DNA of 64,000 nt. Origin: Atriophallophorus winterbourni. Its lineage: Eukaryota > Platyhelminthes > Trematoda > Plagiorchiida > Microphallidae. Below, piece after piece: positions 8,130-60,949 of the stretch. The notes beneath the pieces are model-generated. The model had not been told where the DNA came from. It did not search any database and was given only the letters and a program-made list of their open reading frames with translations. Position 1 is the first letter of the stretch, and each line of letters opens with the position of its first letter. The DNA is taken from assembly GCA_013407085.1 (NCBI GenBank), contig JACCGJ010001313.1, positions 1 to 64,000 on the forward strand, read 5' to 3'. The position numbers were made by a program, and so were the translations under genes.

Positions 8130-8400
8130 ATTTATCTGCACTTTAATAAGGCTCACACCACACGACTGGCTTCGGCCTGTTTGCACTCGTTAGGTAAGAA
8201 TAGTAGGAGTAAAGAATAAGGTTGGTACGACCATCCCGTTCAAACACATGGTCCCACTGTCATGTAAAGTGGGTTTGAACGAAAAAGCTGATTTGCATGC
8301 ATTTTAATCACACATACCCTATAACCGGGTTCGAGCTGTCTGCACTCAGGAGGTAGGGATCGTAGGATCACGATCCGCACGCGCTTGCTAATTTGGAAGA
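8130..8400 (-). repeat. Degenerate hammerhead retrozyme, two partial monomers
   Basis: On the minus strand two decayed copies of the hammerhead block appear. One is at about 8320-8375, with CCCTACC, GAGTGCAGACAGC and CCGGTTA. The other is at about 8160-8200, with AACGAGTGCAAACAG and CCAGTCGTGTGG. The text between them carries other monomer landmarks ('ggttggtacgacca', 'tttgcatgc'). Both cores lack CTGATGA, so no activity is expected. Confidence 0.65.
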
Positions 8401-18450: not shown

Positions 18451-19209
18451 TACATGTATTTTAAGTGCAGGTTGTCACTAAAATCTGACAGATCTGAATA
18501 AAATTAATTTAATTTAATGTTGGCGTTCTGAAAAGCATACACCTTTACAAAAACGGCAGAATAATATGGGAAATGAGAATAATATATCAAGCAAAAACGG
18601 GATTTGGTTGATTACTGATCTGTTCGGAAATATGGTGAAAATCCATCAGGCAAAAATTGTTTTCGATTGGTGGCATGACGAATATAGATGCATGGGTTCA
18701 AGATGTATAGTTTTCTTTGGTGCACGGGTTACTTAATCTATTGAATATCTGCGGATTTGATGAGTATGAAACATAATCGGGAACGTTTTACAAGTGAAAC
18801 AAACTCGCATGGAAATGTGATAGTAAATCGAAAAATGGATATGTGCCAATTTATTACCGTGTGCAACTGGAAACATTCGACATTGTCAAAAATCAAAGAT
18901 ATATAATCAGTCTTTCTCTGGATCTCTAAAACTTTCTTTACATAGAAAATAATTGTGAAATCATTGCATTATTGTCAGATGAATTTCGTCTATTTAATGA
19001 ACGTGCGTTTTACTCCAGCCAAATCCTAAATTTGAGTAGTTGTTCAGCTATTCTAGGCAATCCAAGATAATCTTTCGATTGTCGATTTTACATATTTTTT
19101 ACGATTTCTGCAGTGTTTTACACCAATGCAATCATTATCCAAAAGAGGCATACCAGCGATACATGTTTGCCTTTTTCTCCTTGTTCCAAGCGCATGCGGG
19201 TTTTAAAGA

Positions 19210-19255
19210 TGCAGTCTGTACCTAATGAGAGCAAACAACACGAAAGCGGTCGTGG
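19210..19255 (+). ncRNA. Diverged hammerhead ribozyme motif
   Basis: TACCTAATGAGAGC, a short loop, then ACACGAAAGCGGTCGTGG follows the type I hammerhead order. The core has CTAATGA instead of CTGATGA (G5 changed), which should abolish cleavage. The upstream text 'tgttccaagcgcatgcggg' matches the 233-bp monomers at 43-44 kb. Confidence 0.6.
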
Positions 19256-20764
19256 TTAGAGCGTAAGATGAAAATGCGCGCAAATATAGGTATTTTTTGG
19301 ATCTTTTGACTCCAAATAAAGCTGTCTACATCTTTGAAGCTTGAGACACAACCATACTTAGACTAATCAGAGAGTAACTGAGCAACAAATAAAGAAACAT
19401 GATCAATTCTCTTCACAGACATGTGAACTATCAATAATGGTATTGAGATGACACTCTCGACCTTGTATTCTTACATAGAGATGGCCGAAATAAATACGTT
19501 ATATCATCGTGGCTTCAAATTATTTAACAAAATATTCCAGTAGAATAACTGAAGAAATATCAACTCCTCAGGAACAACAAAAACCTAGTGACAGGCTCAT
19601 CAGATTTGGATATCTACTGCTAGCTGAAATTCACTTTCCACAAAACCATTAATGCTCACGTGAAAGTAGAATCTGCGCATATTCATTATCGCAATTTAAA
19701 CTCGAACCCAAAATTTTCATACTTAGCATAGTATGACCAAATTCATCGGCCATAATTATGCCAAATGAATGAATACTACCGATCATGATGCGCATGCACA
19801 GTTATTCACCGACAAACTTCCACAATGCCTGGTATATTGGAACGCATGTACAAACCACAACATCTACTCTGAATTCGAAGACAACATATATTGCGATGGA
19901 AACATATATTTGTACAGAAGCACGTATCTCGATACGAAATAACCATGTAGCTCAATTCTGAACACGTGTGATTTCTAACCATCTTTATAGCGATTGAAAT
20001 GATTAATTTTCGGTAACCATTCACTTTATTTTAAAGTTGAACTTCGTTGCAATCTCGATAGTAGAAGAACAACTTAAATCCCGTACTGGCAGGAGGGAAT
20101 ATATATCGTACGACCAAATCTCAGCCGGTATTTATAGTTCAGTAATGATTACCAAAATGGCTGTAAATAGGACAAAAAGTCATATAATTTTTTCCGATAT
20201 TCATACACTATGATTAGAAGTCTGTAGCGTTTATATCAAATATTCTGTAACATTTGAGTACGTGCTTGACTTGCACAAGTAATGGATCAGTGCGTCGTCT
20301 ATAAAAACAATAAATGTGTAACGAATTCTTATTTTTTGATCGAAACACAATTGAGTTGCCATCACGTACCACTTTGCTATCGGAAGAAGACTTTTTCAAC
20401 AAAAATAATTCAGACTCAATTAGTCTATTTCGTTCAACAGATACACTGTAAGGTCTTATATGTTATTATACACATTTGGAATATTCTTGTGGCAAACTTT
20501 CGTAACAGCTGCCTCTAATATACAGCACGTTAATTGCAATATGGAAAATGAAAAGTTTATACTGCAACAAATCTGACCTATTTACCTCGCAGGTCATGCT
20601 ACTATGAGCAAAACCAATCAATTGATGAATAAAAAATCATTGAAACAATTTTGTTGCGTACTTTATTATTTTCACACAAGCTCTACCACACCAGGTGTAA
20701 TAAAAATGAAAATATAAGACCAGTCTTTCTGTAACTCACTTCCTATCTATTTATATTACACTAA

Positions 20765-21309: not shown

Positions 21310-24275
21310 TGCTGGATTCATTTCAGGATGTCAGAACGAGGGATCACAGACTTTCTTTGCCTTCCAACGAACCACGGCCTTCACAATCAGACGAGACACC
21401 GAATAGAAACATTGTAGCAATCATAAAAATCGACCGTTGTCTGACTCTCGAAGGGTCGGATTAGTAGACGAGCTTTCAGCTCCTTCACTGTATGCGATAA
21501 CCACAATCAATTGCCTAATTACAAACGCACAATGCCTGTCAAACAAACTACCTGACCTGAAGGATCTCTGCAATCAGCACTCACTCGACGTCATACCATT
21601 TACTGAAACATGGTGCTTACCTCACGTGACCACTCGCGATCTCTTTATTCCGAACATGAGCCTATTTCTGAGAGACCGCTTAAGAACAGGTGGCGGAGTA
21701 GCTGTTTACAACCATGATCGTTTTTTACTGTACGGTAGTTACATACACCGAACTTGATCCGGAAGAAAGTTTATGATGCCATTTAAAACTCAATTCAGGC
21801 GACAGTTGCATCATTGGTGTAGTTAACCGTTCACCATCATCATTGGATGCGTATTACGAGAAACTGTTGAAAGCAATGCAGGACGCCGGAAAACAGCGCA
21901 ATTGACAATTAATGAATATAAGAGACTTCAATCACCCTAAACTATATAACCGAGTAGATTATCCCCTCCTATAACTAGACTACAAATTTCGCGAAAGTTC
22001 CGATAGCATATCATTGTTTAATCATTTTTGCGATTATACACGACAACGAAATTTGTAACAGACTTCTGTTCTAGACCAAGTCTTAACCTTCAGAGCCATT
22101 GAAAATGTTCAGTATCACCCTCCAATGGGTCGAACGGACCACCTCGTTCTGCTATTTCAATATGTGTGCAACGCCAGTAAAATTGCAAATCAAACAAAAC
22201 GAAATGAACAAGTTGATTACATTGGTTTGATGGAAACAATGGTAGCTTTCGATGAACATGATATGAATTTCAGTGATCCGGATTCACATTGCACAACCCT
22301 GCCAGATTACATAATCAACATGATACATTTCAATTCCGAATATGTCCCAAAACATAATAACAAAGAACCACACTTCAGAATTCGCAGTAGCACTAGAAAA
22401 TGGTTGACAAAGCGAAATGTGGCATTGGCATTTCACAGGGTCGCCATAACTGATTCGACGTGGGCAAACTTTCGCGAATTGCCGAATGAAGTCACAAATC
22501 TCATACGAGAGGACAAAAAAACACCAGCTTAAGCTGGCGGTAAGAATGCAGCGAAATTCCAAACTGCTTCATCGTACTGTTAACAACGCTTCGAATCAGA
22601 AACCTGGTGTTTTTCCGATCATGACAGATAACGGACTAACTGATTATATGCTGGAAACCGCTAACGATGAAGCCAGTTTTTATTCACGGGTTTTCACCCG
22701 AAGGATGAATTACAGCGGTTAGAATTGTCGGCACCAATTGTGCCACAGACTATATGCGATGTATGTATTAGTTCGGAAATAGTGCAGCACCACCTACGTG
22801 AGTTGAATACCAACAAGTCCCCAGTAATGCGGCAGTCAACTGTGCGAACCACTTTGTGATTTATTTAATCAATTCTTGAAGAAGGGTGTTGTACCTAATG
22901 AGTGCAAGAGAAGAATCATAGCACTCATCTATAAAGGTGAAACTTGTTCGGACCCAGAAAATTACCGTCCTGATACACTCCTCCCAGTGATCTCAACAGT
23001 TATGGAGCGAATTGTGTGCGAAAGAATTGTGTGTCACCTTGAAGCCCAATACTTGTTGTCCAGAGAGCAACATGGATTTAGGAAGTATAGTTCGTGCTAG
23101 TCTAACCTACAAGAGACACTGGATGACTGGACGCAGGCTGTGGATAATGGCGGTTGCATGCATGCGTGTTACTTGGACATATCAAAGGCGTTTGATCGCG
23201 TGGACCCTTCTATTGTTCTGAGCAAGCTGCAGGATGTTGGTATTAATGGGTGTCTTCTTACCTGACTGAGAAGTTACCTTCTTGATCACAAAGCAACTGT
23301 ACGTATCGATGGTGATGGAAATCGAAGTCAATAGCGGTGTTCCACAAGGTTCGTTACTTGTTCCGCTTCTCTTTTTGGTTTACATCAACCACCTTCTGAA
23401 ACTCGTCACAGCAAAAATAGTTCTCTTTGAGGATGATGTTAAAATTTGGATGCGAATCACGTCAGGCGTGGAATGTTTGCGCTTACAAAGCGATTTGGAT
23501 GTATAAAACAGCTGGTCGGAGAAAATAAACATCCATTCAACTTCCGAAAATGTAAAATGTTGCAAATAGGCTATGATTTCCCATTCTCATACAAACTTGA
23601 ATCAAATCAACTATAATGGACAACCAGATGATAAGACATCGGCGTATGGATTGGTGGAAGTCTTAAGAATAGTATGCAATGCGAAGCAGTGTACAACCGA
23701 GCAGGCCGCATGCTGGGTATGCTTCGGCGTATTTTCGGACACTTTCCCAGTAAATCATTCTCCATTCTCATGAATACGTTTATTAACCCGGTGATGGATT
23801 TCTCAGTGCAAGCTTGGTCACCGTGGCTACAAAAGGACATCAAGCTGCTCGAGAGGATTTATCACGGAGCAAATAAAATGGTTGGCTGCCTCCGCAACCT
23901 ACCATACGAGAATCGACTTAGGCATCTTAGTTTGAATACACTGCTTCGCAGACGTGTTAAATTTGATCTAATCCTAACATACAAGATAATAAACTCAAAG
24001 GCGCACCCTCTGAGACATCTAATTTGCCTTAGGTCGAGCCATTTTACACGTACTCACGAATTGGCATTTGATATTCCACATTCCCAACGGAACTGCCGCG
24101 TTTCTTCTTTACGGTGCGCGTCTGTTTCTTATGGAACTCCATACCGTCGGATGTTGTCCAATCATCTAGTGAAAGGATTTTCAGGAACAAATTCGATATA
24201 TTTATGAGTAGTAATTCCGCCCAACGTCCGGTTTATATAACATGAACTTTCCAAACGAATATTTGTTCATCGTAC
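21310..24275 (+). mobile_element. CR1-like LINE, ORF2-spanning copy
   Basis: An ORF2 region of about 2.9 kb in order. The apurinic-type endonuclease N-terminus is at 21437-21757 (Asn-Ala-Gln-Cys-Leu-Ser-Asn-Lys-Leu, Glu-Thr-Trp, Gly-Gly-Gly-Val-Ala). The Thr-Asp-His endonuclease motif is at 22125. Reverse-transcriptase fingers lie at 22876-23100 (Tyr-Arg-Pro, Gln-His-Gly-Phe-Arg), Leu-Asp-Ile-Ser-Lys-Ala-Phe-Asp at about 23173, and Gly-Val-Pro-Gln-Gly-Ser at about 23335. The catalytic block at about 23425 reads Phe-Glu-Asp-Asp instead of Phe-Ala-Asp-Asp. The C-terminal region is 23674-24207. Several frameshifts and stops make it inactive. Confidence 0.88.
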
Positions 24276-25102: not shown

Positions 25103-28017
25103 ATTTGGCGACGGACAACTTACTTGTGAGATAGATTTCAATGGCGAGCAAGCAACTGGTTTAGTTTACTTGACGCCTCACGATATACGTGATTTGATTG
25201 AAAAGGACTGGATCAAACGGCTGAATTTACTTAGCGTGCCTCTGAAAGATCTGTGCTCAAAAACAACCGCAACAGTGTGACAGACAAATTCTTCTCCAAG
25301 AACTCCAAATCATTTGGCCGCTAAATTGTTCACTGAATTTGCAAATGTATTTCAGTCCAAACTTGGTCGGTGCTCAAGGTTTAAGGCCTCCTTACATTTG
25401 TTTCCGGATGTAAAACCTGTTTTCAAACCAAGGCGTCCGGTCCCCTACACAGCACAAGAGAGTGTCGAGCAAGGGCAGTTCCTATCGTTGTTATTCGAAA
25501 GTCAAACGGGATTGTGTGCTGGTTTTTTAGCCGGATTAAATGCATGCCCCGAGCCTCACCAGCACCCAATGCCCCTACCACAAGACATATTCGCCAAACT
25601 CGATGGAGGGAAATTCTTTGCTACCCTTGATTTAGCCTACGCCTAATTACAATTGGACGTGGAACCGTCATGTAGAAAATTGCTCACTATCAACACACAA
25701 AAGGGACTTTACCATTGCCATTACGATTGCCATTTGGCGTCAAAACGGCCCCGGCAATTTTCCAGCAAGTGATAGATACTATGCTATCCGGAGTTCCAGG
25801 TGCAGCAGCATATATGGATGACATCATTGTAATGGGAGCCTCACCAGAAGAAATCACAAGCCGCCTTAAGACAGTTCTTGAGCAAATCAGACAATATGGT
25901 TTTCATCTAAGATCAGAAGAGTGTCGCCTATTCATGCGATCGATAAAAATCTTGGGATTTCTTAGTGATCAAGATGGTCGGCGCCCAGACCCAGACATTG
26001 TCAAGGCGATCGCCGAGCCACCACATCCAACGGACCTCCCTAACTTACGATTCTTTTTGGGGACGATAAGTTATTACAGTCAATTCCTCCCAAAAATGCA
26101 CCAATTAAGGCAGCCATTAAATCAACTTCTGTCAAAAGATGTCGAATGGCAGTGGTCCGAAGCATACCAACAAGCATTCGATCAACTGACGGCATTGATA
26201 ACATCAGACCTCTTGTTAACACATTACAATCCTAACTTATCAATCACAGTCGCAACGGATGCCTCTAGCTATGGGTTAGGAGCAGTGATCTCCCATTGAT
26301 TTCCAGACAGATTAAAAAAGGCAATAGCACACGCTGCGCAAGCTCTCACTCTATCAGAAAGGAATTACAGCCAAATTAAAATGGAAGCTTTGGCCATAGT
26401 CTTTGCAGTTCAAAAGTTCCACTAGATGCTTTGCGGACGAAAATTCACATTGCTCACAGACCACAAGCCGCTATTTACAATATTTGGATCAAAGAATGAC
26501 ATCCCTATATATACAGCAAGTCGCTTACAACGTTGGGCTACGTTACTTCTGGGCTATCAATTTGATATCAAGTACATACGAACTGAAGCTATCCGACAGG
26601 CTGATGCCCTCTCACGCCTTATTGATGCGAACAACGTCGAACCCGAAGACGCAGTGATCGCCGCCATCACCGCAGATATTGACAGAGCCTGCTTGTCTAC
26701 GCACTTGGGGACATCACTCAATGTGACGTTGAAGATGATAAACAACGCAACAAAATCTGATCCGATACTTCAACGAGTATTATCCTACCTGCAAAAGAGA
26801 TGGCCAAAGAAATGTCCAAACAGTGAATTGACCCCATATTTCCGACGAAGGAACTCACTTTCACAGACAGACTCTTGCTTTTTCTTCGCGGATCGAGTTG
26901 TCATTCCAGAGGGCTTACGTAAACGTGTTCTACGTCAGTCTTCTGGACCCAGTTGGACCAACAAGTAGAAGATCTTTGCCGGTCTTGTTCCAAGTGTGCC
27001 GTGATAGCAAGACTTCCTGTCCAGACCGAACTACACTCTTGGCCGCAGCCAATAAAACCGTGGTCACGTGTGCACGTTGATTTGTTGGTACGTTCATAAG
27101 AGTGCATTTTTTCGTCATGGTAGATGCGTACAGTAAATGGCCACAGGTAACTTTGATGAACCACACTTCTGCAGCCCAGACAGTTTGAACGATGAGACGA
27201 ATCTTCACTCAGCATGGTCTCTCAGAAACATTGGTGTCCGACAACGGGTCTCAATTTACCTCCAAGCTGTTCACAGAATTTTGAATTTAAAATGGAATAA
27301 ATTATAACAGAACGGCACCATATTACCCTTAATCCAATGGGCATACTGAAAGATTTATGGACAATCTGAAACGAGCCCTTGAGAAGGCTGAATCCGAAGG
27401 ACCACTGGATTGCATTCTAGATAAATTCTTGTTCAGTTACCGGATTACACCAAAGCCGAATTCGCCGAATAGTCAATCCCCAGCAGAATCTCTCATGGGA
27501 AGAAAACTCCGGGCTACCTACGATGCAATGTACCCCAGACCTCCTGTAAAGTTAATCCTCAATCGGAAAATGGAAAATCAATACAACCGACGTAACGGCG
27601 CTCGCCGAATATCATTCAGCCTGGCGAACACGTATGGATTACATGCCTTCGACAACACGGATTGGTTTGATAACCGGCGGTCGTAACGAAAAGACGCGGT
27701 ATGGTATTGTACGAAGTCATGGCCGATGGAAAGCAGATTGTTCGGTACGCAAAGCAAATGCGAACAAGACTCTGCCCCGAAGAACCATCTGTTCCCAGTC
27801 ACAGTCTTAACGAACTACTGGAAGTAGACCAACCTATCAGCACCGATGAACAAATGCAAAGAGTCGACAACCGTCTTGCTGAACAACATCGAACAAACGA
27901 GACACCAAAAAGAAGATACCAAACACGAAGAAGAATAATGGTTCGACCATTTCAAATCGATCTAAGAAACAAGACGTACATAGACCGAAGGTAAACGTCC
28001 TTTTTCGCAGGAGGAGG
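25103..28017 (+). mobile_element. Gypsy-type LTR retrotransposon, internal region
   Basis: Pol domains appear in order after only about 210 bp of leader. Reverse transcriptase is at 25314-26299, with the Tyr-Met-Asp-Asp active site at about 25816. RNase H is at about 26250-26600 (Ala-Thr-Asp-Ala-Ser, Thr-Asp-His-Lys). Integrase remnants run from about 26980 to 27690. Gag and protease are not visible, so they were deleted or too decayed to read. A purine tract (GCAGGAGGAGG) directly precedes the 3' LTR. Stops and frameshifts are spread throughout. Confidence 0.93.
25314..27994 (+). pseudogene. Gypsy pol polyprotein pseudogene
   Basis: Remains of the polyprotein that copies element RNA and integrates the DNA. 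Open pieces are 25314-25646 (N-terminal reverse transcriptase, Pro-Val-Pro-Tyr, Lys-Leu-Asp-Gly-Gly, Leu-Asp-Leu-Ala-Tyr), 25715-26299 (fingers, palm with Tyr-Met-Asp-Asp, connection, start of RNase H), 26426-26968 (RNase H end and linker), 27357-27686 (integrase C-terminal part) and 27701-27994 (tail). A stop at 25646 and several more break the frame, and the integrase core between about 26970 and 27350 is shattered. Nothing here can be translated as a whole. The frame order and the purine tract after it confirm the Gypsy (Ty3-like) class. No chromodomain is recognisable. Confidence 0.9.
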
Positions 28018-28281
28018 TGTCAAGATAGTTCAATCTAGGCACGTCAAAACTAACACTGCTTTGGAAATATTGATCGATTTCAATCAATTGAACATACCTC
28101 GCCGATTTAAATTAATATAGCAGCTTGGCTTTAGTAGCTTGGCCTCACTTTCGTTCATCTAGTTGGTTAATTGTACATGTATATAAAAATGATCTATAAA
28201 TAAAACGAAGCATCCTGTCAGTCGCTTTTTACCACTTTCTTGAGTGTTGGGTCAGCCGGAACTCGCTCCAAAAACACAACA
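28018..28281 (+). repeat. 3' LTR of Gypsy-type retrotransposon
   Basis: 264 bp, TGTCAAG to CAACA, preceded by a purine tract. Contains TATATAAAAATGA-type and AATAAAAC signals near 28185-28206. Compared with the 5' LTR it has an extra block of about 10 bp near 28150. Confidence 0.93.
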
Positions 28282-28660
28282 TGATCCTCGCCTTTTGAGA
28301 ATAACGCTGCAATCTGCGGAGGACGTGGAAAACGTACTCTTGAATGCTTTAATACTTAGAGGTGTTCCAGAGACTACATGTCGTATCCATGCAGACCTAC
28401 CATCTCTTGAAAAACGTAATCCAAGAAGTATTGTAATTCTTGGTGTTCCCAAAGATGCTGCTAACGTACTTTCTCAAGAAAAGTCCGAGCACGACCACAA
28501 ACAGTGGAAATATGTAGACGAAACAATTGGCATTGAAAATACCATAATTGTGGATGCTTTCAGGATACCGCGGTCTGCCAACTATGAAGGGCAACGTCCT
28601 AGACCTTTGAAGCTAACCTCTTTCACAACCGAGACAACGGATACTATCGAACGTGAATGA
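28244..28660 (+). pseudogene. LINE ORF1 remnant fused to LTR-derived start
   Basis: A 138-residue open frame whose first about 13 residues come from the end of the 3' LTR and whose remainder is the C-terminal half of LINE ORF1 (begins after Gln-His-Asp; Ile-Val-Ile-Leu-Gly-Val-Pro is readable). ORF1 proteins of such LINEs bind nucleic acid and accompany the element RNA. The ATG at 28244 exists only because the Gypsy element landed here. The minus copy's ORF1 (41386-41613) matches the LINE portion. There is no evidence of expression and it is probably an accident of insertion. Confidence 0.6.
28282..28286. other. Target-site duplication, right
   Basis: TGATC, identical to 24845-24849. After it the interrupted LINE ORF1 resumes. 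Confidence 0.9.
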
Positions 28661-31600
28661 AAAGCTAATAGAAAATACCTACCCCAAAAACGTCAAGTTG
28701 AGCCTACCCGAGGTAAAAGCCGGAATCAAGCAAATGGATAGAACCGCCCCTCAAACGCCTAGTGATGTGGTTCAACCTCGATGTCATGCAATGGTTTCAA
28801 AAACTTGAGAATTCTGACTGTAGCCAAGTCGGCCTTTTGAAAACTTTTCATGATTTAAACACCACGAACTTTATAAAATGTTCATATACAAATACACAAA
28901 GCCTCCCGAACAAATTACCTGAGCTGACCAAGATATGTTCGCGCTACTCACCTGGCATTATCGCCATTACAAAAACATGGTATTCTTCGCAATTGATCGA
29001 AACGGAGATATTAATTTCAAATATGAATTTGATAAGGAACGATCGAGAGAAAAGGGGTGGTGGTGTTGCTCTTTATTGGCATAATCGACTTCAGTGCCAT
29101 CCAATAGACAAGACAGAATTCACGCTCGAGAATACAATTTGGTGCTCTTTAACTCCGATATCTGGTGAAGTTTGCAATATTGGTGTGGTCTACCGGTTAA
29201 CTTCATCTACGAAATCGTACAACGAGAAGTTAGTGCAAGTGCTTCAGCACTTGACTTGCACACAGCACTTAGTATGGGTGATTTTAATCTGTCTACCCTT
29301 TATCTCAGGGACGATCGCTCCATACAAACGCTAGAATACCGATTTGAAAGGTATTAGATTCAGTCCCGTTATACAACTATGTTCACGAATGCACCCGGAT
29401 GAGAGGTTCTGACCGCCCCTCTGTCTTGGATTTGGTGTTAACATCGGAGGGAAAATCTATCGCAGCGATCGAATTCCAGGCTTCGCTGGGTCTTAGCGAC
29501 CATTCAGTGCTTGTGTTTGTCAATGTTTGCAGTACTCAGCAATCGCTTGCTCCAAATGGGGTGGTTCGACGGGTAGATAAATTGGCTCTGAGTAAATCGC
29601 CCGTGCAGATTCCGTATTTGCAGGTGGACAGCATAAGCCCTGACTCGCAATGGAACGAAGTTGCAGGTTTTCTGAATCTGAAGATACATGAGAACTCGCA
29701 AGTCGTTTAGAAAATGTGCGTACATGAACTTTGTTTTGTCGACCGCAGCAGAACAAAAAAGTGGATAGCACTGAAGCGAGCAGCGTGAATGCAGCAGCGA
29801 CTGCATTTTCTCGAGAGGATAAGAAAGCGCACCAATTGATGCTGCTGTCAAAAATGAAACTAAACTCTGAGTTACTATACAAAATCTTGAACGTAAAACC
29901 AAAAGTCAAACCAGGTATTGTTTCCATCCAGAATGGTGAAAAACTAATTGGAACAGCGTTGGAAACCGCAAATGCTCTAGCAATTTACTACTCTGAAGTG
30001 TTCGTGTCAAAGGTTTCATTGGAACGTCTTGAGTATTTAATCGAAACAGGAATCGAAACGTTGTGCGATATTTCGATAAATCCAATGATTGTTGCAAGTC
30101 ATTTACTCAAACTTAATGTAAGAAAATCCACAGGAGCGGATGGCTTCACACCGGATGTACTCAGGGTTTGTCAACCTCAGCTTTGTGAACCGCTCTCCAG
30201 CCTGTTCAACTAGTCGTTGCTTGAGGGAGTTTTACCGAAAGATTTGAAGTCTGGCGTGATAACACCTATCTTCAAAGGCGGTTGCCGATCTGACGCTGGA
30301 AATTATCGTCCCGTCACACTTTTATGTGTAATTGCTAAGCTCATGAAACGTATAGTCTCGAATGGAATAGATGCACACTTTGAATCGCAGAATTTGTTTT
30401 CGCCAGCTCAGCATGGATTTCGATCTCTTTGCTCGTGTCTAACGAATTTTCACATAGCGTTAGATGACTATACAAAGAAGTTGGATGGGAGTTTTTGCAT
30501 CCACGTCTGTTACCTAGATATTTCGAAAGCTTTTGACAGAGTCAAACATCATTTGATTCTTCAAAAACTGATGCGTTTAGAAATATGTAATCCACTCTCC
30601 TCATGGTTGTGCGACTATCTGTCAGGTCACGACGCCTAAACGTTTAAAACCACCGGCGGTGTCCCACAGAGATCTGTGCTAGGCCCGCTCCTCTTTCTGC
30701 TGCGCATAAATGATTTACCCTTCCCCCATATCGTCCAAAATGGTCCTGTTTGCGAATGATATGAAAATGTGGACGCCAATAAGTTCTGCACAGGATTGTG
30801 AGAAACTGCAAATGGATTAAGACAGCGTGTCGAATTGGACGGTCATGAATGACATGTCATTCAACATACATAAATGTAAGATGCTCCATCTTGGCAAGAA
30901 TGTTCCTTGACATATCGATTGGGAACTGAAAACCTAGCAGGGAGCTCGTGTTGATAAGCGGGAACCCAAAGAGCACAGCGCACTGTCAGAACATATATCG
31001 ACGGGGAAACAGATTGTTGGGTACCTTTCAAAGAATATTTGGAAGATTCTCTCTGATAACCATACCAAGGATGATGAATATCTACCTTCGCCCTAAGATG
31101 GAGTATGCGGTCCAGGTCTGGGCTCCTTGGATGCGAAAAGTTATTGCTCTCTTCGATAAAATCGATCATAGAGCAACAAAGTTAGTGATGGGTCTTCGCA
31201 ATGTTCCGTATACCAAAAGACTGTGACGTCTGGGTTTATGTGACTTTTCCCAGAGGAGGATACAACGTGATATTAATCTGACCTATATATTTTTGTCTAC
31301 CATAGGACATCCAATGAATCACTTGCTTGATGTTAGTGATGGGAAAGTGACACGCGGACATACCCTATCCCTTTACGTTCCAAGTTCCCGTATTGATTGT
31401 CGGTGCCATTTTTTGCCGTACAAGCTATATTTCCTCGGAATTCCCCACCCGAACATGTGGTGGACTGTCCTTGCCTGGCGGCGTTGAAAGCGAAATTGGA
31501 CTTACGTTTGCAAAAGAATAGCATTCGTGATCCTTACATTCGATGTTCACTATTGCTTTTATACTATTGTATTTTTTCTGATTTCATTCATACAGTAATC

Positions 31601-43140: not shown

Positions 43141-43340
43141 TCTTTTTCATTCCATTCTTACACCTGTCTGCAAATGATTATTTTGTATCATGGTTATGGG
43201 TTTAACCCTATTTATCATGTGTTTGGACACATGCTTTGAACAGCTTGGTCTTACCAGCCCTAACCAACAGTGGCATACAAACGCTCCTAGTTTACCATTC
43301 TTCCACTGTTTCAAGCGCATGCGATTCCTGATCTTACTGT

Positions 43341-43382
43341 CCCTACCCGATAAGTGCAAACAGCACGAAACCGGTCGTGGGG
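43341..43382 (+). ncRNA. Hammerhead ribozyme, array monomer 1 (core-mutated)
   Basis: Helix I CCCTAC (43341-43346) pairs fully with GTGGGG (43377-43382). Helix II is GTGC/GCAC with loop AAACA. GAAA is intact (43367-43370), with CCGGTC before the cleavage point. The first core half reads CCGATAA instead of CTGATGA (U4 and G8 changed), so it should be inactive. Confidence 0.85.
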
Positions 43383-43573
43383 TGTGAATGACGGAAAAGC
43401 ATGCAAATGAATATTTCGTTTCATGGTTATGGGTTTAACCCCATTCAACATGTGTTTGGACACATGCTTTAAACAGGTTGTACGTACCAGCCCTAACCAA
43501 CAGTGGCATACAAGCGCTCCTTATTTACCATTGTTCCACTGTTCCAAGCGCCTGCGGATCCTGATCTTACTGT

Positions 43574-43615
43574 CCCTACCGGATGAGAGCAGACAGCACG
43601 AAACCGGTCGTTGGG
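43574..43615 (+). ncRNA. Hammerhead ribozyme, array monomer 2 (core-mutated)
   Basis: The core reads CGGATGA (U4 changed to G). Helix II is GAGC/GCAC with one mismatch, loop AGACA. GAAA and CCGGTC are intact. Helix I CCCTAC pairs with GTTGGG, with one mismatch. Confidence 0.8.
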
Positions 43616-43806
43616 TGTAAATGACGGAAAACCATGCAAATGTATATTTAAATTGATGGTTATGGGTTCAACCCCATTTAACATGTGTTTGGACACATAC
43701 TTTGAAAAGGTTGGTCGTGCCAGCCCTAACCAACAGTGGCATACAACCGCTCCTTGTTTACCATTCTTCCACTGTTTCAAGCGCATGCGGATTCTGATCT
43801 TACTGT

Positions 43807-43848
43807 CCTTACTTGATGATTGCAAACAGCACAAAACCGATCGTAGTT
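43807..43848 (+). ncRNA. Hammerhead ribozyme, array monomer 3 (core-mutated)
   Basis: The core reads TTGATGA (C3 changed to T). The second half is AAAA instead of GAAA, and CCGATC replaces CCGGTC. It is the most decayed of the four. Confidence 0.75.
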
Positions 43849-44038
43849 TGTGAATGACGGAAAACATGCAAATGAATATTTTGTCTCGTGGTTATGAGTT
43901 TAACCCCATTTAACATGTGTTTGGACACATGCTTTGAACAGGTTGGTCATACCAGCCTTATCCAACAGTGGCATACAAGCGCTCCTTATTTACCATTGTT
44001 CCACTGTTCCAAGCGCCTGCGGATCCTAATCTTACTAT

Positions 44039-44080
44039 CCCTACCTGATGAGTGCAAACAGCACAAAATCGGTCGTTGGG
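44039..44080 (+). ncRNA. Hammerhead ribozyme, array monomer 4 (core-mutated)
   Basis: CTGATGA (44045-44051) and helix II GTGC/GCAC are intact, but the second core half is AAAA (G12 changed to A) and helix III is TCGGTC. A single G12 change is expected to destroy activity. Confidence 0.8.
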
Positions 44081-44294
44081 TGTGAACGACGGCAAAACAT
44101 GCAAATGAAATCTCTCATAAGTTCAACATACTTTCAGCTTGAAAACCTCACAAAATTTTCTTAATGAACATGATTCATCAAATTGACCTTACATCTACCG
44201 TGTGTATTCTACATACCATGGTTGGTATTGCCAAATTGATTCAGAGTGGCACTCAATTATATCTTTGTTTATCCATCATACACTGTTCAAGGGC

Positions 44295-44365: not shown

Positions 44366-45914
44366 GGAGAGGATGTGAGTTCCCAAAAGACTGGTATTAC
44401 TATCATTATTTGTATTACACCAGTTGAGATTCAGCTGGCGTGACAGTAATGAGATATGCGACAAAAGACTTAAACAATTTTTCATTCAGCAATTCGTTTA
44501 ATGTTTTTTTTAAAATCCCGTAATGTGAACAAGTCAGCTTAGTTGTAGTTCAAGCTTTTCATTTTCATATATTGCGATTAACATGCTGAAAATTTGATGC
44601 AGCTATAAATTAGGATAAATTGCAAAATGTATATTCCAAAAGTGTACTTTTACATCTAAATTCTTATAGTTAATAATTTGAACAAAATATACTAATTGAT
44701 TTCGAATTAATTTCTTATGAAAAAATTCTACTTTCCATATTAATAAGGTACGTGATGGCAACTTTTATTTTGTATCGATCGACAAGTAAGGTTTCGTTAC
44801 ACATTCATTGATTCTATCAACGATGCATTGATCCATTAATTGTGCAAGTTAAACCCATACTTGAATGTAACAGAATAATTAATATGAATGCTACCAACTG
44901 CTGACCATAGTTTATGAATATTGGAAAAATTATATGCGATTTTGTCCTACACACAGCCATTCCTGTAGTCAATGCTCAACTATAAATATCGGTTAGGATT
45001 TGGTCGTACGAAATATATATTTACTTCTGCCAGCAAGCAGCTCGGGATTAAAATGGTTTTTCTACGAACGAGATTGCAATGAAGTTTTGATTCCAAATTG
45101 AGTAAATGGTTACCGAACACAAATCATTTCTTTCGCCTTGAAGATCGTTAGAAATCACACGTGTTCCGAATTGAGCTGCATGGTTATTTCCGATCGAGAT
45201 TCGTGAATTTGTACAAATATATTTTTCCATCGCAATATATGTTGTAATCCTATTCAGAGTACATCGAGTGATGCGTGCTTGCGTTTCAAAATATAATTAA
45301 TTTTTGATGTTTGGCTGTAAATAACTCTGCAAAATGTGTATCCTGATCGGTTGCAACCATTTACTCTGCGAACGTTTGTACACAAAATTTAGACAAGAAT
45401 CTGGATTTTGGGTTCGAGTTTGAAATGTGATATGGAATATATGCTGATTCTGAATTTACGTGAGCGTTGAAGTTTTTGTTTTAATTTGAGTTCAGATTCG
45501 ATTAGAAATCTAAGCCGTAAAAGTCCGTCGCTAGGTTGTTTGTGTTATTCTTCAGTTGCACTTTCTTCAGTAATTCTCTAGGATGCTTTAGTTCAATACT
45601 ATGAAGCCATGATGATATATCGTATTTCTTTCGACAATCTATATGTGACAATTCAATGACGCGTGGCGTGACGTGATGTTGGAAGATCATAATGACCTAG
45701 GATTCAGAAGACCTGAATACTAATATGTACTCATTTTAATTCCACTAGTTTGAGACGAGAATCAATCATGTTTCTTTATTGTTTGCTCATATACTCTCTG
45801 ATCCGCCTGGTTGTGTAGCTGGCTTTCATGACATACACATCTTTATTTATTGTCATATTATTTAACGAAATATCTATATTAACGTGCGTCATCATCCTGC
45901 ACTCAATCCACGAC

Positions 45915-45965
45915 TGGGTCCTTGTTGTTTGCTCTCATTAGGTACGGATAATAGAATCAGAATCC
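45915..45965 (-). ncRNA. Diverged hammerhead ribozyme motif
   Basis: The minus strand reads CCGTACCTAATGAGAGC, loop, then AAGGACCCAGTCGTGG. It is the counterpart of 19210-19255 in copy A with the same CTAATGA change, and the second core half is lost. Confidence 0.5.
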
Positions 45966-46299
45966 ACATGCGTTAGGATCAGTGGACGAAAAGCAAACAA
46001 GTAGCGATTGTATGGTAATTTGGGATAAGAATTTACCTGTGCGTAAAACACAGCATAAATCGTAAACAATGTGTGAATTCGACGATCAAAATATAATCTG
46101 GTCTGCCTGAAATAGATGAACGACAATTCAAATATAGGCTGTAGCTAGAGTAAAACGCACGTCAATTCCATGATCGAATTTCCCTGACAATTGTTTAATG
46201 ATTTTACATTACTTTATGATGTAAAATAACTCTTAGAGATATCCTGAGAATGATTGAATATATAAATAGGCTCACTGAAACTAGACCTTCTGTGTCCAC

Positions 46300-46670
46300 T
46301 TGAAGATTTCACACAGTCAGGAACAGGTAGTGGAGTGCAATTTCGTGGGATGTGAGCAACGCATTACTCTAGTCACACATAAGCGCCTTGAGTGATTGAC
46401 CACGATTCTGTGTTTCAACATCGTGGTCCGTTGTACGAACCCTATGTAACAGCGTTATTCAAGTATAACTTTGTTTAGCAATTTCCACTTTTTCTAGTGT
46501 TACTTAACCTAATATTTTTGTAACATGCAAGTTCAACGCTGTTTAGCAAATTAACACTGTTTTAAGGCTCACTCAATGTAAGCCTACTGTCCCAACCTGG
46601 TAAAGGCAACAGCCAGACACCGGTGTGGGTTCTTAGGGATTGTTTGTGAGCATCTGAATATATTTGTCAT
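46300..46670 (+). repeat. Dispersed short repeat with hammerhead-like end
   Basis: Matches 56500-56820 in part ('tgagatgtgagcaacacataa'-like ends, 'gtacgaaccctatg'). At 46575-46625 it ends in CTACTGTCCCAACCTGGTAAAGG, loop, ACACCGGTGTGGG, a clearly decayed hammerhead. Related pieces are near 1320-1440 and 47640-47830. Confidence 0.55.
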
Positions 46671-47319: not shown

Positions 47320-47950
47320 TGGTAACATTTTGTTACGTGCTATGCATTGTGTGGAATAAAGTCAATAAATTTACAAGAAAATGACAATATTATTTCGAAT
47401 ATATATATGTTGCGTAATAAAAAGTCAATGAGACTAAGATTATTTATATTTAAATTTGAAAATGAGTAATCTAAGATCTCAAGGTACATTGAACGTAAGT
47501 ACAATGTAATAGTGGGAAACAGTACTAGACTTTGAGTTTTGCGTTGTGACGTTTTAATAAGCCCGCAGCAAACGACTTCCGTTCAAATGAACAAAACGTT
47601 CAATGTCTTCTGGTGCTCACATTACCATCGCTTACGCACCGTCATCTGATGGATACAGTAAAATCAGGTTTTCAGTGAGACTTGAAACAGTGGTTAAGTG
47701 GTATGCAAAGTTATACTTAAACGTCACTGTTGCATAGGTTTCTTACAACGAACCACGATGCTCAAACACAGAATCACATAGTGTTTGCCTATGAACAAAT
47801 TAATGTGTTGCTCACATCTCCGCACTGACACACCAATACTGGTATCTAACTGCTTCATGTAATTAGGTGGATATGAAAGAGCAAGTAAATATGTTGTTGT
47901 TGGCCTCCGTTTGCCGATGTCGACCATGGATGTACATCACAATCGCATGA
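47320..47950. other. No gene; dispersed short repeat
   Basis: Positions about 47640-47830 carry pieces of the short repeat family ('cacagaatcacat', 'aatgtgttgctcacatctc'). The minus strand near 47650 reads CAGATGACGG, a degenerate hammerhead core. Nothing else is supported. Confidence 0.45.
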
Positions 47951-51204: not shown

Positions 51205-53310
51205 TTGATGTATGTATGATGTATGTATGAAAGCACAAGCCTAATCCAGGCAAAGTGCCGAACAGTCAGACACTGCACGTGGGCTAAGATACTGTCAGGT
51301 TACCCAGGCTTAGACAGATATGAGGGGGGGATAGAAATAGATGTAACATACATAGACCCTGAGTAACCTGACACTAAATAATACCATGTAATTCGGACAT
51401 TGTGAACAGTTCTATACGTGTGCTAATGTACAAAATACTTACAATTGGTTCAATAACCAGGAATAACGTGACAAAATATGTTGTCTATAGAAGTGTTTAT
51501 TATGAGAATTTCGCATAGCGATGGAGCAGTAAGAGAATCTACGAGTGTTTTAAATTTACCTGTAGATGTGCACATGCGAAAATGGAGTGGAAGAGAATTC
51601 CAAAGATGCGCATACCTAATTAAAAAGAAGTTTTGTCGAACTTTAGTGCGAGTAAGGGGAATATGTTATAGCCTCATTCGGTTACGTCGTACAAAACGAT
51701 TGCAATCTTGAAAGCGCATAGTAGATCTAAGCTTAACTTGGTGCTCTGTGATGATTCGGAAGAAAAGAAAGAAGATTAAGGCGAATTCTGCGTAACTGTA
51801 GCGGGTCAATATCTAGTAGATTGTATCTTACTTTTTAAGATGAAGGATTAGAGTAGCCTTACATGATTTTGCTAAATCAAATTTGAAGGCTTTCTAAGAG
51901 AACACAGTCATGCCTAGCGATGTGAGAGTAGGCTTTATTACAGTAGTCAAGAAACGGTAATACTTTCATTTTATATAGACTTAGTCTACTTTCACAAAGG
52001 AGGAATTTTTGATTTATCAAACAAAAATTCTGTCTAGCTCTTGCTATGAGAAATCTTACTTGTTCGTTGAAATTGAGAGATGGAGAATATCTAAATCCCA
52101 AGTCTTTGATTTAGTTAGATGGTGCGATTGGTGTATTGTTAAGAATAATACTACCGGGTGGGGCTATTGAGCAGCGTATAGCCATGAATTGCGTCTTCAG
52201 AGCTGAGAATTCTAAACCCCATTGTGAGCCCCAACATGAAAGGGTTGAAAGATCGTCGTTTAGAGAGTCTATAGCCTGTGATATCTCTATGGCTGGAAAA
52301 GCTAAAACAACTTCAATATCATCCGCAAATTTAAAAAGCTTTGAGTTTTTTTTTACGAAATCTTGACCATCATCAATATATATAAGAAAAAGGAGGGGAC
52401 CTAGTACGCTACCCTGATTGACTCTACTCGGTATAGGTTGTATTTCAGAGGATATGCCATTAACGGAAACGGAGAAGGTGCGATCAGACATATATGAACA
52501 GAAACAATTAAAAAGGGATCCGGAAATACCAAGTGATGATAATTTTCGAAGAAGAATATAATGAGGAACCTTATCAAATGCTTTGGTGATTTCTAAAAAA
52601 CTGTCAGTAGATCTATTCCATGATCTATGGAGGCCGTTATATGGTAGAAATATTAATACTGACAGGTAATGCAGGAATTCTGATTTACAAAACCATGTTG
52701 GAATGGGGAGAAATCGTTTGGGCCCAAGTAAGCTATTAATGCGTTCTTGATCAACTTTTCGAATAGTCTAGAGAGAAAGGATGTGTGATTAATTGGGCGA
52801 TAATTAGTGACGATGTGCAAATTCCCTGTTTTACACCGAGGTATAATGACAGAATGTTTTCATTCAAGGGGGGAAATACCAGATTTGATAGAAAGATTAA
52901 ACAGGTTTAATAAAATTAAAGGTAAATCATACGTATTTAGTTGCAAGATTGCTGTAACAAAGCTACAATATCAAGCGTCACATTGCGCTAACTTCTTGTA
53001 GACTAAAGTAGAGGGAATCCATACACATTGAATTAATATTTTAATTTGGGAGTACAAGTTATACGCTGGTATTGAATGACTTAATTAAATAGTTCAGAAA
53101 AAGCTTACTTATTGCTGAAGAGTCTGATGTTGATGATACCCTGCCATCATCGTTGAACACAAGTGTAGAAATTTTATGTTTACTTAGATTATATTGAGAT
53201 CTCGTTAGACTGTTCAAAGACTTGGTCTTCGAAGCATTGTTCGGGGCCATTCTTTCTTGATTCTCGATGAATTGTAATTTGATTGTTGTAAAAGAGCTAA
53301 GAAAATCCTT
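51205..53310 (-). mobile_element. CR1-like LINE family D, 3' part
   Basis: Minus-strand ORF2 pieces: 53059-53250 (upstream of the palm); 52111-52491, with Val-Asn-Gln-Gly-Ser-Val-Leu-Gly-Pro-Leu-Leu-Phe and the active-site Phe-Ala-Asp-Asp; and 51877-52101 (C-terminal thumb-like block). The 3' tail ends at about 51205 in repeated CATA/CATC units. The family is distinct from the other CR1-like copies. Its 5' side continues at 55684-55980, beyond an inserted LINE. Confidence 0.8.
52111..52491 (-). pseudogene. LINE-D reverse transcriptase palm, partial
   Basis: A 126-residue open frame covering the core of a non-LTR reverse transcriptase. In order: Ser-Asp-Arg-Thr-Phe-Ser-Val, Gly-Ser-Val-Leu-Gly-Pro-Leu-Leu-Phe-Leu-Ile-Tyr-Ile-Asp-Asp, Lys-Leu-Phe-Lys-Phe-Ala-Asp-Asp (catalytic pair intact), Leu-Asp/Ser-x2-Cys-Trp-Gly, and Trp-Gly-Leu-Glu-Phe-Ser. 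It would copy the LINE RNA at a nicked target. Flanking frames are shifted, so the protein is broken. A related frame with the same Phe-Ala-Asp-Asp block lies near 61430 on the minus strand. Confidence 0.8.
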
Positions 53311-53469
53311 CTTCTTCTTCTTGATAGACGACAGGCAGTCAAGCCATTGTAAGACGCATCACTTCATATCAGCAACATAGACCACAGAACCTCAGTTGAA
53401 GTAATCCTGTCCAGTGTTGTTCAGCTTCGCCGTGATTACAGGCAATACCTTATCCAAAAGTTGCTTGGA

Positions 53470-53871
53470 TTAATTTTCAGAGCTTGCTGAGATAACCTCT
53501 TCCGGAAGCGCATTCCACAAGTTAACAATTCTTGTTAAGAGCGTAAATCCCTGTAGTAGGCGTAGTGTGCTTCGCTTTTGAAGCTTTAGAGCATGGCCAC
53601 GGGTTCTTGAATCAGTCACGAGAGGGAAAATACTCGCGCAGGTCGTCACCATAAGATCCCAGTAATATGCTCGAGTTAGCAGCAGGTCGTAGCGCACACG
53701 CCGAATACTAAGCGACATGAGGTTGAGGCGTTGAACTCTCTCCACATAAGGAATTGATTTCAATCCTTGTACTCGTTTCGTCGCCCGCCTTTGCAATTTT
53801 TCCAACTGGTCACGTTCTACCTTAGTTTGAGGATAGGTGGCTGGCAAACCATATTCCAAAACTGGTCTCAC
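53470..53871 (-). pseudogene. LINE-C ORF2 C-terminal region
   Basis: A 133-residue frame: Met-Arg-Pro-Val-Leu-Glu-Tyr-Gly at its start, Leu-Glu-Lys-Leu-Gln-Arg-Arg-Ala-Thr-Lys, Tyr-x-Glu-Arg, Arg-Arg-Val-Arg-Tyr-Asp-Leu-Leu-Leu-Thr, Thr-Arg-Gly-His, and Asn-Leu-Trp-Asn-Ala-Leu-Pro. This is the standard tail after the reverse transcriptase in CR1- and jockey-group proteins. It lies about 50 bp downstream of the reverse-transcriptase frame in another phase. Confidence 0.85.
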
Positions 53872-53919
53872 GTATGTGGAATAAAGAATGCGAAATATTT
53901 CTGGAGTAATCGCCGAAAA

Positions 53920-54639
53920 CTACCGACTAATAGCCCACCATGCGCGGTTTGCACCAGCAGCTTTTCTGTTCGTATCCTCCTTGGATTTAAGCGTCCGAGT
54001 CACAATTGTACTCAGGACACGTTCAGTATCAACCCACTTCAGTTGATGCTCCCCAAGGAAGTACGCACCTTCAGGCGTGCTTGGCACCAAAAGCATTACA
54101 GCGCATTTCTGTCGGTTTACAGGAAGCTGCCATTTTACCGTCCAATCAAGCAATTTGTTCAATTCGTTCTGGAAAATGGTATTATCAGCAGAAGAGCATA
54201 CTGTACCCCAAACTTTCAGATCATCCGCGAAAAGTAGACAATTCATATTTAATGAGTCGGGGAGGTCATTAACATATACTTTAAAAAGTAACGGGGCGAG
54301 AACAGATCCTTGCGGTACACCGGAAGTTGGACGTGCAACCTGCAATTTGACTCCGTTAACTTCGACCTGTGTATAACGGTCAACAAGGGAATCTTCAATC
54401 CAAGTTAGAACAGGTCCCTTTACACCACGAGCACGGAGCTTGAGCAATAGACGCTGAAATGGAATACGGTCAAAAGCCTTACTGAAGTCAATAAAGGCAG
54501 TGACTACCGGGAGACCCAGATCAAGTTCACCACACCAGTGCTCGCGAGCAGTGATGAGATTGTATGCGCATGATCGTCTTGGCGTAAAACCATGTTGAGC
54601 AGATGTTAGCTGACTAGGTTTAAGGAGAAAATCTTCCAT
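53920..54639 (-). pseudogene. LINE-C reverse transcriptase, long open frame
   Basis: A 239-residue uninterrupted frame spanning most of a non-LTR reverse transcriptase. In order: Ser-Ala-Gln-His-Gly-Phe-Thr near residue 13; Phe-Ile-Asp-Phe-Ser-Lys-Ala-Phe-Asp-Arg near 49; Ser-Gly-Val-Pro-Gln-Gly-Ser-Val-Leu-Ala-Pro-Leu-Leu-Phe near 104; the active-site Phe-Ala-Asp-Asp-Leu-Lys-Val-Trp near 136; and Trp-Gln-Leu-Pro-Val-Asn near 169. All catalytic aspartates are present. A stop separates it from the preceding block (54655-54852, Tyr-Gln-Pro-Val-Thr), and a frame break separates it from the C-terminal part (53470-53871). The whole ORF2 is therefore not translatable, though it is little decayed. 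Confidence 0.88.
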
Positions 54640-55683
54640 CTGTTTTTTCAGCAGTCATTCCAGAGTCTTCTCAAGGACCGAAGTGAGGGTAACCGGTTGG
54701 TAGTTAGCCGGATCACTGTTTTCACTGACCTTATACATTGCTTTGACAATGCCGTACTTCCAATCGTTAGGTAACCTACCATACCTCAGGGATAAATTGA
54801 AGAATAGCGCTAGTGGTTTATGTATGATACTCGACAATACCTTTAAAAGCATTAAGTGTATATCGTCCGGGCTAGATGCTGAGTGAACATCGAGTTGTTC
54901 TAGTAAATACTACACCATCTCTGGGGAGATCGAGATATGCGGCATTTCGGCGTTGCTCTCATGAAGCAGAGGAATGGGAAACGTCTCCTCTGTGTGAACC
55001 GAATTGTACTGAGCGGCGATAACTGCTTTACGTTCATCTCCATGTTAAGTCGAACCTCCCATAGATCTCAAGCAAGGTAATCATTGAGAAGATTCGGTAT
55101 ACGTCTTATGTACGCAAACAAGCGTTTCGGCATCGAGTTGGCTTTGTCCACCAAGCGAGTTTCATAATTCTGCCTTTTTTCTCTTTTGAGATAGGTGCAC
55201 TCATTGTAGGTTACATAGTCATCGGTGCATCCACTGGAACAAACTTCCGACATAACCGCTTTCTTACCTTCATGTATTTACGAATAAATTTATCAAACCA
55301 CGGCGGTCCCTTAGCGGATGATCTTCCATTCATCCATGGAGCATGATTTTCAAGCGATCCTATTTTACCTAAAAGGTCCAAACAACAAGTATCGACATTC
55401 GTTGATAGAGGGAGTGACCAGTCCACCGAGTTTGCAGACGTGATTAGAATCTTTGTGTCTAATTTCCAGTAGTTTCTCCGGGCATCCGTACGTATTCTCG
55501 GTTGAAGACCCCGATTCAAAACGAACCATAAAGAACAGTGATAGCTGCAACCAATGGGGTCTCACTAGACAGATAAGTAACATCAGAGAATCTAGGTGTG
55601 ACCACCAAATGCAATATCGAAATTCGTAAAAATGAATAAAAGTCTGGTGTGTGGTTTGCAAAAGCAGAATGACGGGCTATCTT

Positions 55684-56499: not shown

Positions 56500-56830
56500 A
56501 TAGTTACCTGCCACTGAAGCGTACTGTTCGTACAACGAATGACGATGTTTTAACACAGAATCACATGGTCAAGCAATCTAGGCGCTTATGCATGACCAAG
56601 TTGATGTGTTGCTCAAATCTCTTAAATGCTTCACCACGAATAACAATGTGGTTCTTTGTACGAACCCTATGCAACACGGCCATGCAAGTATAACCTTGTT
56701 TACCTTCAATCAACTGTTTCAAGTCTCACGAAACCCATACTACCTGTCTCCAGCGGATGACGGCAACCAGACAAAAACCGGTAGTGCAGTGTAATTTCGT
56801 GAGATGTGAGCAACACATAACCTTAAAATA
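56500..56830 (+). repeat. Dispersed short repeat with hammerhead-like end
   Basis: Carries the landmarks 'cacagaatcacatgg', 'tgtgttgctcaaatctc', 'gtacgaaccctatgcaac' shared with 1320-1440, 46300-46670 and 47640-47830. Near 56745-56795 it has GTCTCCAGCGGATGACGGC, loop, CAAAAACCGGTAGTG. That is a hammerhead order with CGGATGA and AAAA in place of CTGATGA and GAAA, so inactive. Confidence 0.6.
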
Positions 56831-60239: not shown

Positions 60240-60475
60240 ATTCCGGAGATAAAAAGGAGTTGAGTTGCATTATGAATTCAGTTTGTGAAGTGCTCAATCT
60301 TATATTATTGGGAAGTAAATTCCATAAACGAGAATATTTATAAATGAAGAAATCTTTTCGTACACGATTGTGGACTTTCGGTGTCGAAGATTATATACTT
60401 CAGAGTTCTTGAAATCTAATTGTAAATCAATGTCGATCATATCGTTTTTCCAAAGTATAAGATTTTAAACAAGGA
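60240..60475 (-). mobile_element. LINE family D fragment, 3' piece
   Basis: 'agttgcattatgaattc', 'ggaagtaaattccataaacg', 'agaaatcttttcgtacac' correspond to 51490-51680 ('agaattccaaagatgcgcat', 'agaagttttgtcgaac') on the same strand. It is separated from its remainder (60950-61480) by the hammerhead repeat. Confidence 0.6.
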
Positions 60476-60623
60476 GCGCTTATATGCTACTGTTAGATAA
60501 GTTTGGTACGACCAACTTGTTCAAAGCATGTGTCCAAACACATGTTTGATGGGGTTAAACCCATAACCATGAAACAAAATATGCATTTGCATGCTTTTCC
60601 GTCATGCATGCATGCTTTTCTGT

Positions 60624-60665
60624 CTCTACCTGATGAGTGCTAACAGCACGAAACCGGTCGTGGGG
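60624..60665 (+). ncRNA. Hammerhead ribozyme, type I, intact core (first of dimer)
   Basis: Self-cleaving RNA motif. Helix I is CTCTAC (60624-60629) with GTGGGG (60660-60665), six pairs including two G-U. Core CTGATGA is at 60630-60636. Helix II is GTGC/GCAC with loop TAACA (60637-60649). GAAA is at 60650-60653. Helix III is only A-C/G-T with a two-base CG loop, and C60659 is the cleavage-site base. All conserved core bases and the G10.1-C11.1 pair are present. Such a short helix III is known in some animal hammerheads, where a dimeric fold helps cleavage. Predicted cleavage is between 60659 and 60660. Confidence 0.88.
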
Positions 60666-60856
60666 TGTTTTGTGACGGAAAAGCATGTAAATAAATATTT
60701 TGTTTCATGGTTATGGGTTAAATCCCATTAAACATGTGTTTGGACACATGTTTTAACCCGTTGGTCGTATTTGCCTTATCCAACAGTGGCATACAAGCGC
60801 TCCTCGTTTACCATTCCTTCACTGTTTCAAGCGCATGCAGATACTGATCTTACTGT

Positions 60857-60898
60857 CACTACCTGATGAGTGCAAACAGCACGAAACCGGTCGTGTTG
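60857..60898 (+). ncRNA. Hammerhead ribozyme, type I, intact core (second of dimer)
   Basis: Core CTGATGA is at 60863-60869. Helix II is GTGC/GCAC, loop AAACA. GAAA is at 60883-60886, CCGGTC at 60887-60892. Helix I CACTAC pairs with GTGTTG, five of six positions paired, with A-U replacing a wobble. Cleavage is predicted between 60892 and 60893. Cleavage here and at 60659 would release a 233-nt RNA. Confidence 0.85.
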
Positions 60899-60949
60899 TG
60901 TTTTGTGACGGAAAAGCATGCAAATAAATATTTAGTATAACATTTTGTT

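Follow-up and report, generated by a model that had tools for sequence, protein, structure and literature searches.

The insert studied here is 467 bp long (positions 60467–60933; labelled L082) and lies in the window, by which the whole analysed stretch of 64,000 nucleotides is meant. It consists of an inverted partial unit followed by a direct run of 1.4 units of a 233-bp repeat, and a 13-bp duplication, mismatched at one position, encloses it. At least 12 identities were reached by only 4 of 20,000 random boundary pairs. A preliminary description had delimited the feature as 60608–60925, leaving out the inverted piece, the duplication, the further array at 43169–44109 and the family in the rest of the genome; with the duplications included the feature extends over 60454–60946. 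The 233-bp unit has a GC content of 0.42, and its longest stop-free run is 56 aa (three tandem units examined). All features, including further copies in the window, are collated in Table 1.

Table 1. Features of the 467-bp insert and related copies in the window.
Position	Strand	Feature	Remarks
8115–8483	-	Old diverged copy	Two core-like places, internal deletion (by eye)
19135–19296	+	Old diverged copy	
43169–44109	+	Second copy, four-unit tandem array	82–85% identical; all four ribozyme cores altered from the pattern
45864–46029	-	Old diverged copy	
56665–56792	+	Related hammerhead family B	Unit of about 240 bp
60454–60466	.	Left flanking duplication AGTATAAGATTTT, likely target-site duplication	12/13 identical to 60934–60946
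60467–60604	-	Inverted partial unit (left piece), unit position ~151 down to 14	Alignment to 60673–60810; outer end at 151
60605–60616	.	Inversion junction	Short GCATGC-type repeats
60617–60659	+	5′ partial unit with core 1 (60630–60659)	Predicted cut after 60659
60660–60892	+	Complete 233-bp unit ending in core 2 (60863–60892)	Predicted cut after 60892
60893–60933	+	3′ tail, unit positions 1–41; likely reverse transcription start at tail end	20/22 compiled inserts end at 39–53
60934–60946	.	Right flanking duplication AGTATAACATTTT	Pairs with 60454–60466

Two type I hammerhead cores exactly 233 bp apart had been reported in the preliminary description, and both were found; this spacing leads to the two predicted cuts given in Table 1. 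Each core carries CTGATGA, helix II GTGC/GCAC and GAAACCGGTC. The pattern CTGATGA-N6–30-GAAACCGGTC was matched twice in the window and was absent from 100 dinucleotide shuffles. When the covariance model Rfam RF00163 (hammerhead type I) was applied as a check, both cores were matched with 26.8 and 25.6 bits (E 6e-4 and 1.6e-3 over 1.5 kb). Neither score reaches the curated cut-off (34 bits), and a default Rfam scan is therefore empty at the locus. The 87-nt copies of the two cores are 92% identical. Their helix I arms match as previously described, with the exception of one non-standard pair in the second copy; the minimum-energy fold of this copy taken alone differs from a hammerhead. Helix III consists of ACC/GGU only, without a proper loop, so that pairing of the two cores may be required and hammerhead activity at the locus may depend on both acting together. 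In amphibian retrozymes, cores with such a helix III are reported to perform better in pairs (excerpt of PMC7229834). The tandem cores could, as judged from their arrangement, release a 233-nt RNA. Both hammerhead motifs are kept in 47 of 64 units, and conservation of the core bases did not significantly exceed that of the other unit positions (permutation p 0.13). Viral contigs were also scanned: the exact core gave no match, and a looser core gave 73 stretches (L001–L073).

The array at 43169–44109 has the same TGCAAATGA of the unit at both its start and its end; a separate flanking duplication was looked for there and none was found. Further places with family B are located at 46268–46628 and 47639–47786 and in L077 (2171–2722). 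Family B has inverted pieces too, and one of its pieces (L124, 5486–5586) sits between a 14-bp duplication. Family A lies within a B copy in L143 and adjoins a B copy in L087. Remains of LINE-like and Gypsy-type retroelements were recognised, partly by eye, at 22059–24207, 25281–26968, 28244–30639 and 52111–54654.

The genome assembly (537 Mb, 15,840 contigs) was searched with three query units, yielding 3105, 1653 and 2929 candidates, which are not confirmed copy numbers; 40 of each were scored. Thirty loci were fetched, of which eight are long arrays (more than about five units) and 22 are short. Several of the candidates, among them C5901, C11662, C7007 and C12009, show 93–94% identity to the 43k unit, extending beyond the unit edges, and are probably long arrays. 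Unit position 185 at first looked like a constant 5′ edge; this was read as an artefact of candidate cutting by the search and discarded, the fetched loci showing variable 5′ ends. Judged by sequence, the 233-bp unit belongs to a genome-wide family that is nearest to the non-LTR retrozymes reported from animals in 2020.

For the analysis of junctions, 22 inserts (L082 included) were picked by hand from 50 loci (sets of 22, 8 and 20), with a duplication of at least 7 bp and at most one mismatch. The duplication of L141 was found by eye after the automated call had missed it. The 28 loci outside this compilation were L143, L150 and 26 loci scoring 0–6. L143 has its 5′ end at −2 and a duplication of about 7 bp, a 9-bp match there being attributed to the old family B copy that surrounds it; L150 has a 7-bp duplication, an inverted outer end at about 152 and a 3′ end near position 14. 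The duplications of the 22 inserts measured 12 bp (seven inserts), 13 bp (six), 11, 9 and 8 bp (two each) and 7, 14 and 16 bp (one each). One mismatch was present in five of them, and those of L146 and L155 are weak. Duplications scoring at least 9 were obtained in 12 of the 22 short loci, as compared with 3 of 220 random placements.

The target sequences of the 22 inserts were biased on both sides. A was present at 56 of 88 positions in −5 to −2 and T at 49 of 88 positions in +1 to +4; neither count was reached by any of 5000 random point sets. The bias persisted in the 17 rows scoring at least 9 (A 44/68, T 42/68). Because C occupies −1 in 11 of the 22 inserts and G occupies +1 in six, the two-fold symmetry of the target is only approximate, and the exact boundaries of the duplications may be blurred by chance matches. 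From these sequences we infer that each target strand would be cut in front of a T-rich run, the cuts mostly being 12–13 nt apart.

The 3′ ends were nearly uniform: 20 of the 22 were located past the ribozyme cut, at unit positions 39–53. No poly(A) or simple-repeat tail was found at any of the 22. An inverted left piece was present in 13 inserts, with its outer end at 143–152 (seven inserts), 122–124 (two), 70–74 (two) or 42–44 (two). In the inserts of this last class the direct 3′ end is at 132 in one and at 145 in the other, which makes them mirror images of the common form; copying thus seems able to start from the same sites on both strands.

The 5′ ends were counted in 46 of the 50 loci; L136, L153, L158 and L161 were omitted because their 5′ ends lie beyond the fetched stretch. 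Thirty-two direct 5′ ends fell within −45 to +18 of the cut, a span picked after the data had been seen and comprising 64 of 233 positions (27% of the unit). At −3 to +1 nine ends were found, with 1.0 expected. L087 and L139 begin exactly at the cut and L151 begins at +1. Where an inverted piece is present, the direct part begins at a junction, which may differ from the end of the RNA; of the compiled inserts without inversion, four of nine have their 5′ end at −3 to +1 (two of six among those with a duplication scoring at least 9). Six of the eight ends at −3 to 0 continue for 2–3 nt beyond the cut through a matching TC or GTC (chance 1.5e-6), and 17 further direct 5′ ends lie inside the ribozyme upstream of −3. 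These continuations and upstream ends imply RNA that was uncut, or had been rejoined, at this place. On the distribution of the junctions, copying is likely to end most frequently within the predicted self-cleaving ribozyme or next to it.

What this distribution records may be read in more than one way. If the ribozyme cleaved itself in vivo and the RNA started at the cut, as in R2 with its HDV-like ribozyme, the excess of ends at −3 to +1, the two inserts starting exactly at the cut and the proportion among inserts without inversion would follow. The runs through TC or GTC and the 17 ends upstream of −3, which need RNA uncut or rejoined, speak against this reading, and both are accounted for by polymerase arrest at the folded ribozyme; moreover, ribozyme mutants of the anole Penelope-like element (PLE) left insertion in vitro unchanged (PMC11167929). 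A first reading of the 5′ ends as exact cleavage footprints was weakened by the distribution of all 46, and self-cleavage as their origin is now given somewhat less than an even chance. Ends upstream of the cut are also compatible with a circular template, since a circle is unbroken at that place. In the published model, a monomer circle arising from ribozyme cleavage and ligation is the template, on which a non-LTR reverse transcriptase makes repeated rounds; circles have been demonstrated in coral and mussel, reported for axolotl and proposed as templates (excerpt of PMC7229834). Seven multi-unit inserts were compared at common variable sites, with a mean of 1.94 differences within a locus versus 5.28 between loci. 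In five of the seven, only 0–1 common sites differ (L087, L105 and L107 of these being without a clear duplication), as copying of a circle would produce. In whole-unit distances (46 units from 13 loci, five of them long arrays), the mean was likewise lower within than between loci in 12 of the 13. The mapped inserts cross ribozyme cut sites, which a closed circle allows equally with uncut RNA. Two of the seven inserts (L098 and L103) nevertheless mix two subfamilies, each inside one perfect duplication; the same subfamilies are also mixed within the long arrays L084 and L097. The nearest neighbour of a unit was in the same locus for only five of the 46 units (shuffled mean 2.5, maximum 9), and the gathering of 5′ ends in the ribozyme is left unexplained by the circle itself, unless the polymerase stalls there. 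Divergence of the 66-nt ribozyme repeat (0.073 within versus 0.086 between loci) was not discriminating. Going by the junction sequences, L098 and L103 would be incompatible with a monomer circle unless they recombined later, and a linear multi-unit transcript would fit them; for the other inserts, either template would fit. The circle is considered an unlikely template. The inserts seen can be accounted for without a 233-nt circle, which may be made as well.

The locus is a 467-bp copy of the 233-bp hammerhead repeat with a 13-bp, one-mismatch duplication. In our judgement it was probably, though with appreciable room for doubt, inserted when linear multi-unit RNA was reverse-transcribed in a target-primed manner, with both cut target strands as primers. 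An endonuclease would cut both strands in front of the T-rich runs and at the spacing given above. One of the 3′ ends would prime copying about 42 nt beyond a ribozyme cut site, and copying would proceed towards the 5′ end of the RNA, tending to halt within the ribozyme, either at the cut or where the core is folded. In those cases in which the other strand primed too, most often near position 147, head-to-head joining of the products would leave the inverted piece. The enzyme would most likely derive from a PLE, because PLE-like endonuclease frames are present in the genome and the known anatomy of PLEs is the nearest match. This fit of anatomy lends new support to PLEs as the enzyme source of retrozymes but does not prove it.

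The genome was searched for GIY-YIG endonucleases, and 17 matches were obtained among 150 scored of 1370 candidates. A YIGQT motif was read in 11 of the 12 GIY-YIG loci fetched, the assignment to PLEs being made by eye. The Rfam hammerhead model gave no match in eight PLE-like loci, and the strict hammerhead pattern gave none in 12 larger PLE-like regions. With a loose pattern, a hammerhead-like string (CTGATGATGTCATC..GA[T/G]TACGAAAC or close) was seen downstream of PLE-like endonuclease frames in L118 (1905), L121 (1335) and L122 (minus strand, 1904); L118 and L121 gave no Rfam match. No PLE terminal repeat in common with the 233-bp unit was found in the 12 larger regions. L124 had been taken as a PLE pseudo-LTR carrying the unit and was rejected, its 3′ repeat being the separate family B piece mentioned above with a duplication of its own. 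In L125, L130, L131 and L132 the PLE-like frames lie in large head-to-head palindromes (arms of about 2 kb, 95–97% identical). The tandem repeats that adjoin these frames (about 231 bp in L131/L132, about 117 bp in L125/L130) gave no match to the 233-bp unit and were dismissed as candidates.

The same inserts could also have arisen from LINE machinery by ordinary twin priming, which gives inverted left pieces and is known for LINE-1. Four fragments in the window match reverse transcriptase models, three of them likely LINE, and the duplication lengths are compatible with this origin. A target that is A-rich on the left and T-rich on the right, internal start sites that recur on both strands, and 22 3′ ends without a poly(A) or simple-repeat tail argue against it, and we hold it to be improbable, at roughly one chance in four. 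Decayed satellite DNA, spread by recombination without a recent RNA step, would be in keeping with the eight long arrays among the 30 fetched loci; since the short inserts have duplications of 11–13 bp and preferred ends, this origin is regarded as very improbable. Priming from both cut strands on linear multi-unit RNA is retained as the preferred account of the locus.

The preliminary description had assigned the locus to the animal retrozyme kind, and this assignment agrees with the type I hammerhead and the tandem units. Metazoan non-LTR retrozymes are described as having a type I hammerhead, tandem units of 150–450 bp, low GC, no ORF and duplications longer than 4 bp, and platyhelminths are named among their carriers (excerpts of PMC7229834 and PMC7761336). 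The locus agrees with them in its type I hammerhead, 233-bp tandem units, GC content of 0.42, lack of a coding frame and duplication longer than 4 bp. The same excerpts do not mention inverted left pieces, internal 3′ ends at a fixed place, a target motif or inserts of mixed subfamilies for them. The sequence family had not been recognised beforehand, and the 233-bp unit is indeed not named in the excerpts of the retrozyme papers. Among the papers listed in literature searches, no title or abstract opening gave an account of such junctions for retrozymes.

Plant LTR retrozymes carry a type III hammerhead and a 4-bp duplication; here the best match is type I and the duplications measure 7–16 bp. 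Eight other loci (L074–L081) contain SINE-like copies with a type I hammerhead above the Rfam cut-off, and by eye these resemble the SMalpha SINE of schistosomes, which makes a trematode the likely host. ARAGORN found no tRNA in two of these copies. Long matches (30–39 nt) between the 233-bp unit and L081 hit a separate hammerhead in that locus; the L081 SINE itself has 14 nt of ribozyme core in common with the unit, and L076 has nothing. In these two comparisons, the SMalpha sequence around the hammerhead was thus absent from the unit. SMalpha-type SINEs (excerpt of PMC8490949) also have a type I hammerhead; the units here are in tandem. In R2 with its HDV-like ribozyme, a ribozyme is likewise tied to the 5′ junction of a retroelement; the ribozyme is a different one and the element is site-specific (excerpt of PMC3774820).

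PLEs were compared more closely. They have been proposed as a strong enzyme candidate for retrozymes (excerpt of PMC7229834). The anole PLE protein cleaves and extends both strands, initiates copying at an internal site of its RNA and works mainly on uncut RNA; the element has a hammerhead (PMC11167929). Rotifer PLEs have direct and inverted (left) terminal repeats and duplications of 8–10 bp, which some of them lack, and can act in trans to mobilise other sequence (excerpt of PMC3846280). The likeness to the present family comprises the hammerhead, tandem and inverted terminal parts, an internal copying start, extension of both strands and a flanking duplication (PMC11167929 and excerpt of PMC3846280). 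Unlike a PLE, the 233-bp unit has no reverse transcriptase or GIY-YIG frame. The duplications are mostly 12–13 bp here as compared with 8–10 bp in rotifer PLEs (excerpt of PMC3846280), and copying starts about 42 nt past the cut as compared with about 85–92 nt in the anole PLE, which prefers ATT sites, unlike the A-rich/T-rich target found here (both reckoned from PMC11167929).

These comparisons touch on the questions of how animal retrozymes re-enter DNA and what purpose their hammerheads have. We tentatively suggest, with rather more doubt than confidence, that retrozymes exploit Penelope-type machinery as RNA parasites. A dimeric endonuclease would cut AAAAC-N12/13-GTTTT-like sites on both strands, both ends would prime on linear multi-unit RNA, and the hammerhead would set the 5′ end of the copy by RNA cutting or by a polymerase stop. 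If this were true, the role of the ribozyme would lie in integration, and the main template would be something other than the abundant circles. Circles as templates and a PLE enzyme were both proposed without junction evidence in the excerpt of PMC7229834. The present family has enough copies with readable ends for starts, stops and target motif to be mapped directly, and both proposals can therefore be tested by junction counting. The junction evidence is the part that is new as compared with the known systems; the system itself is of a known type.
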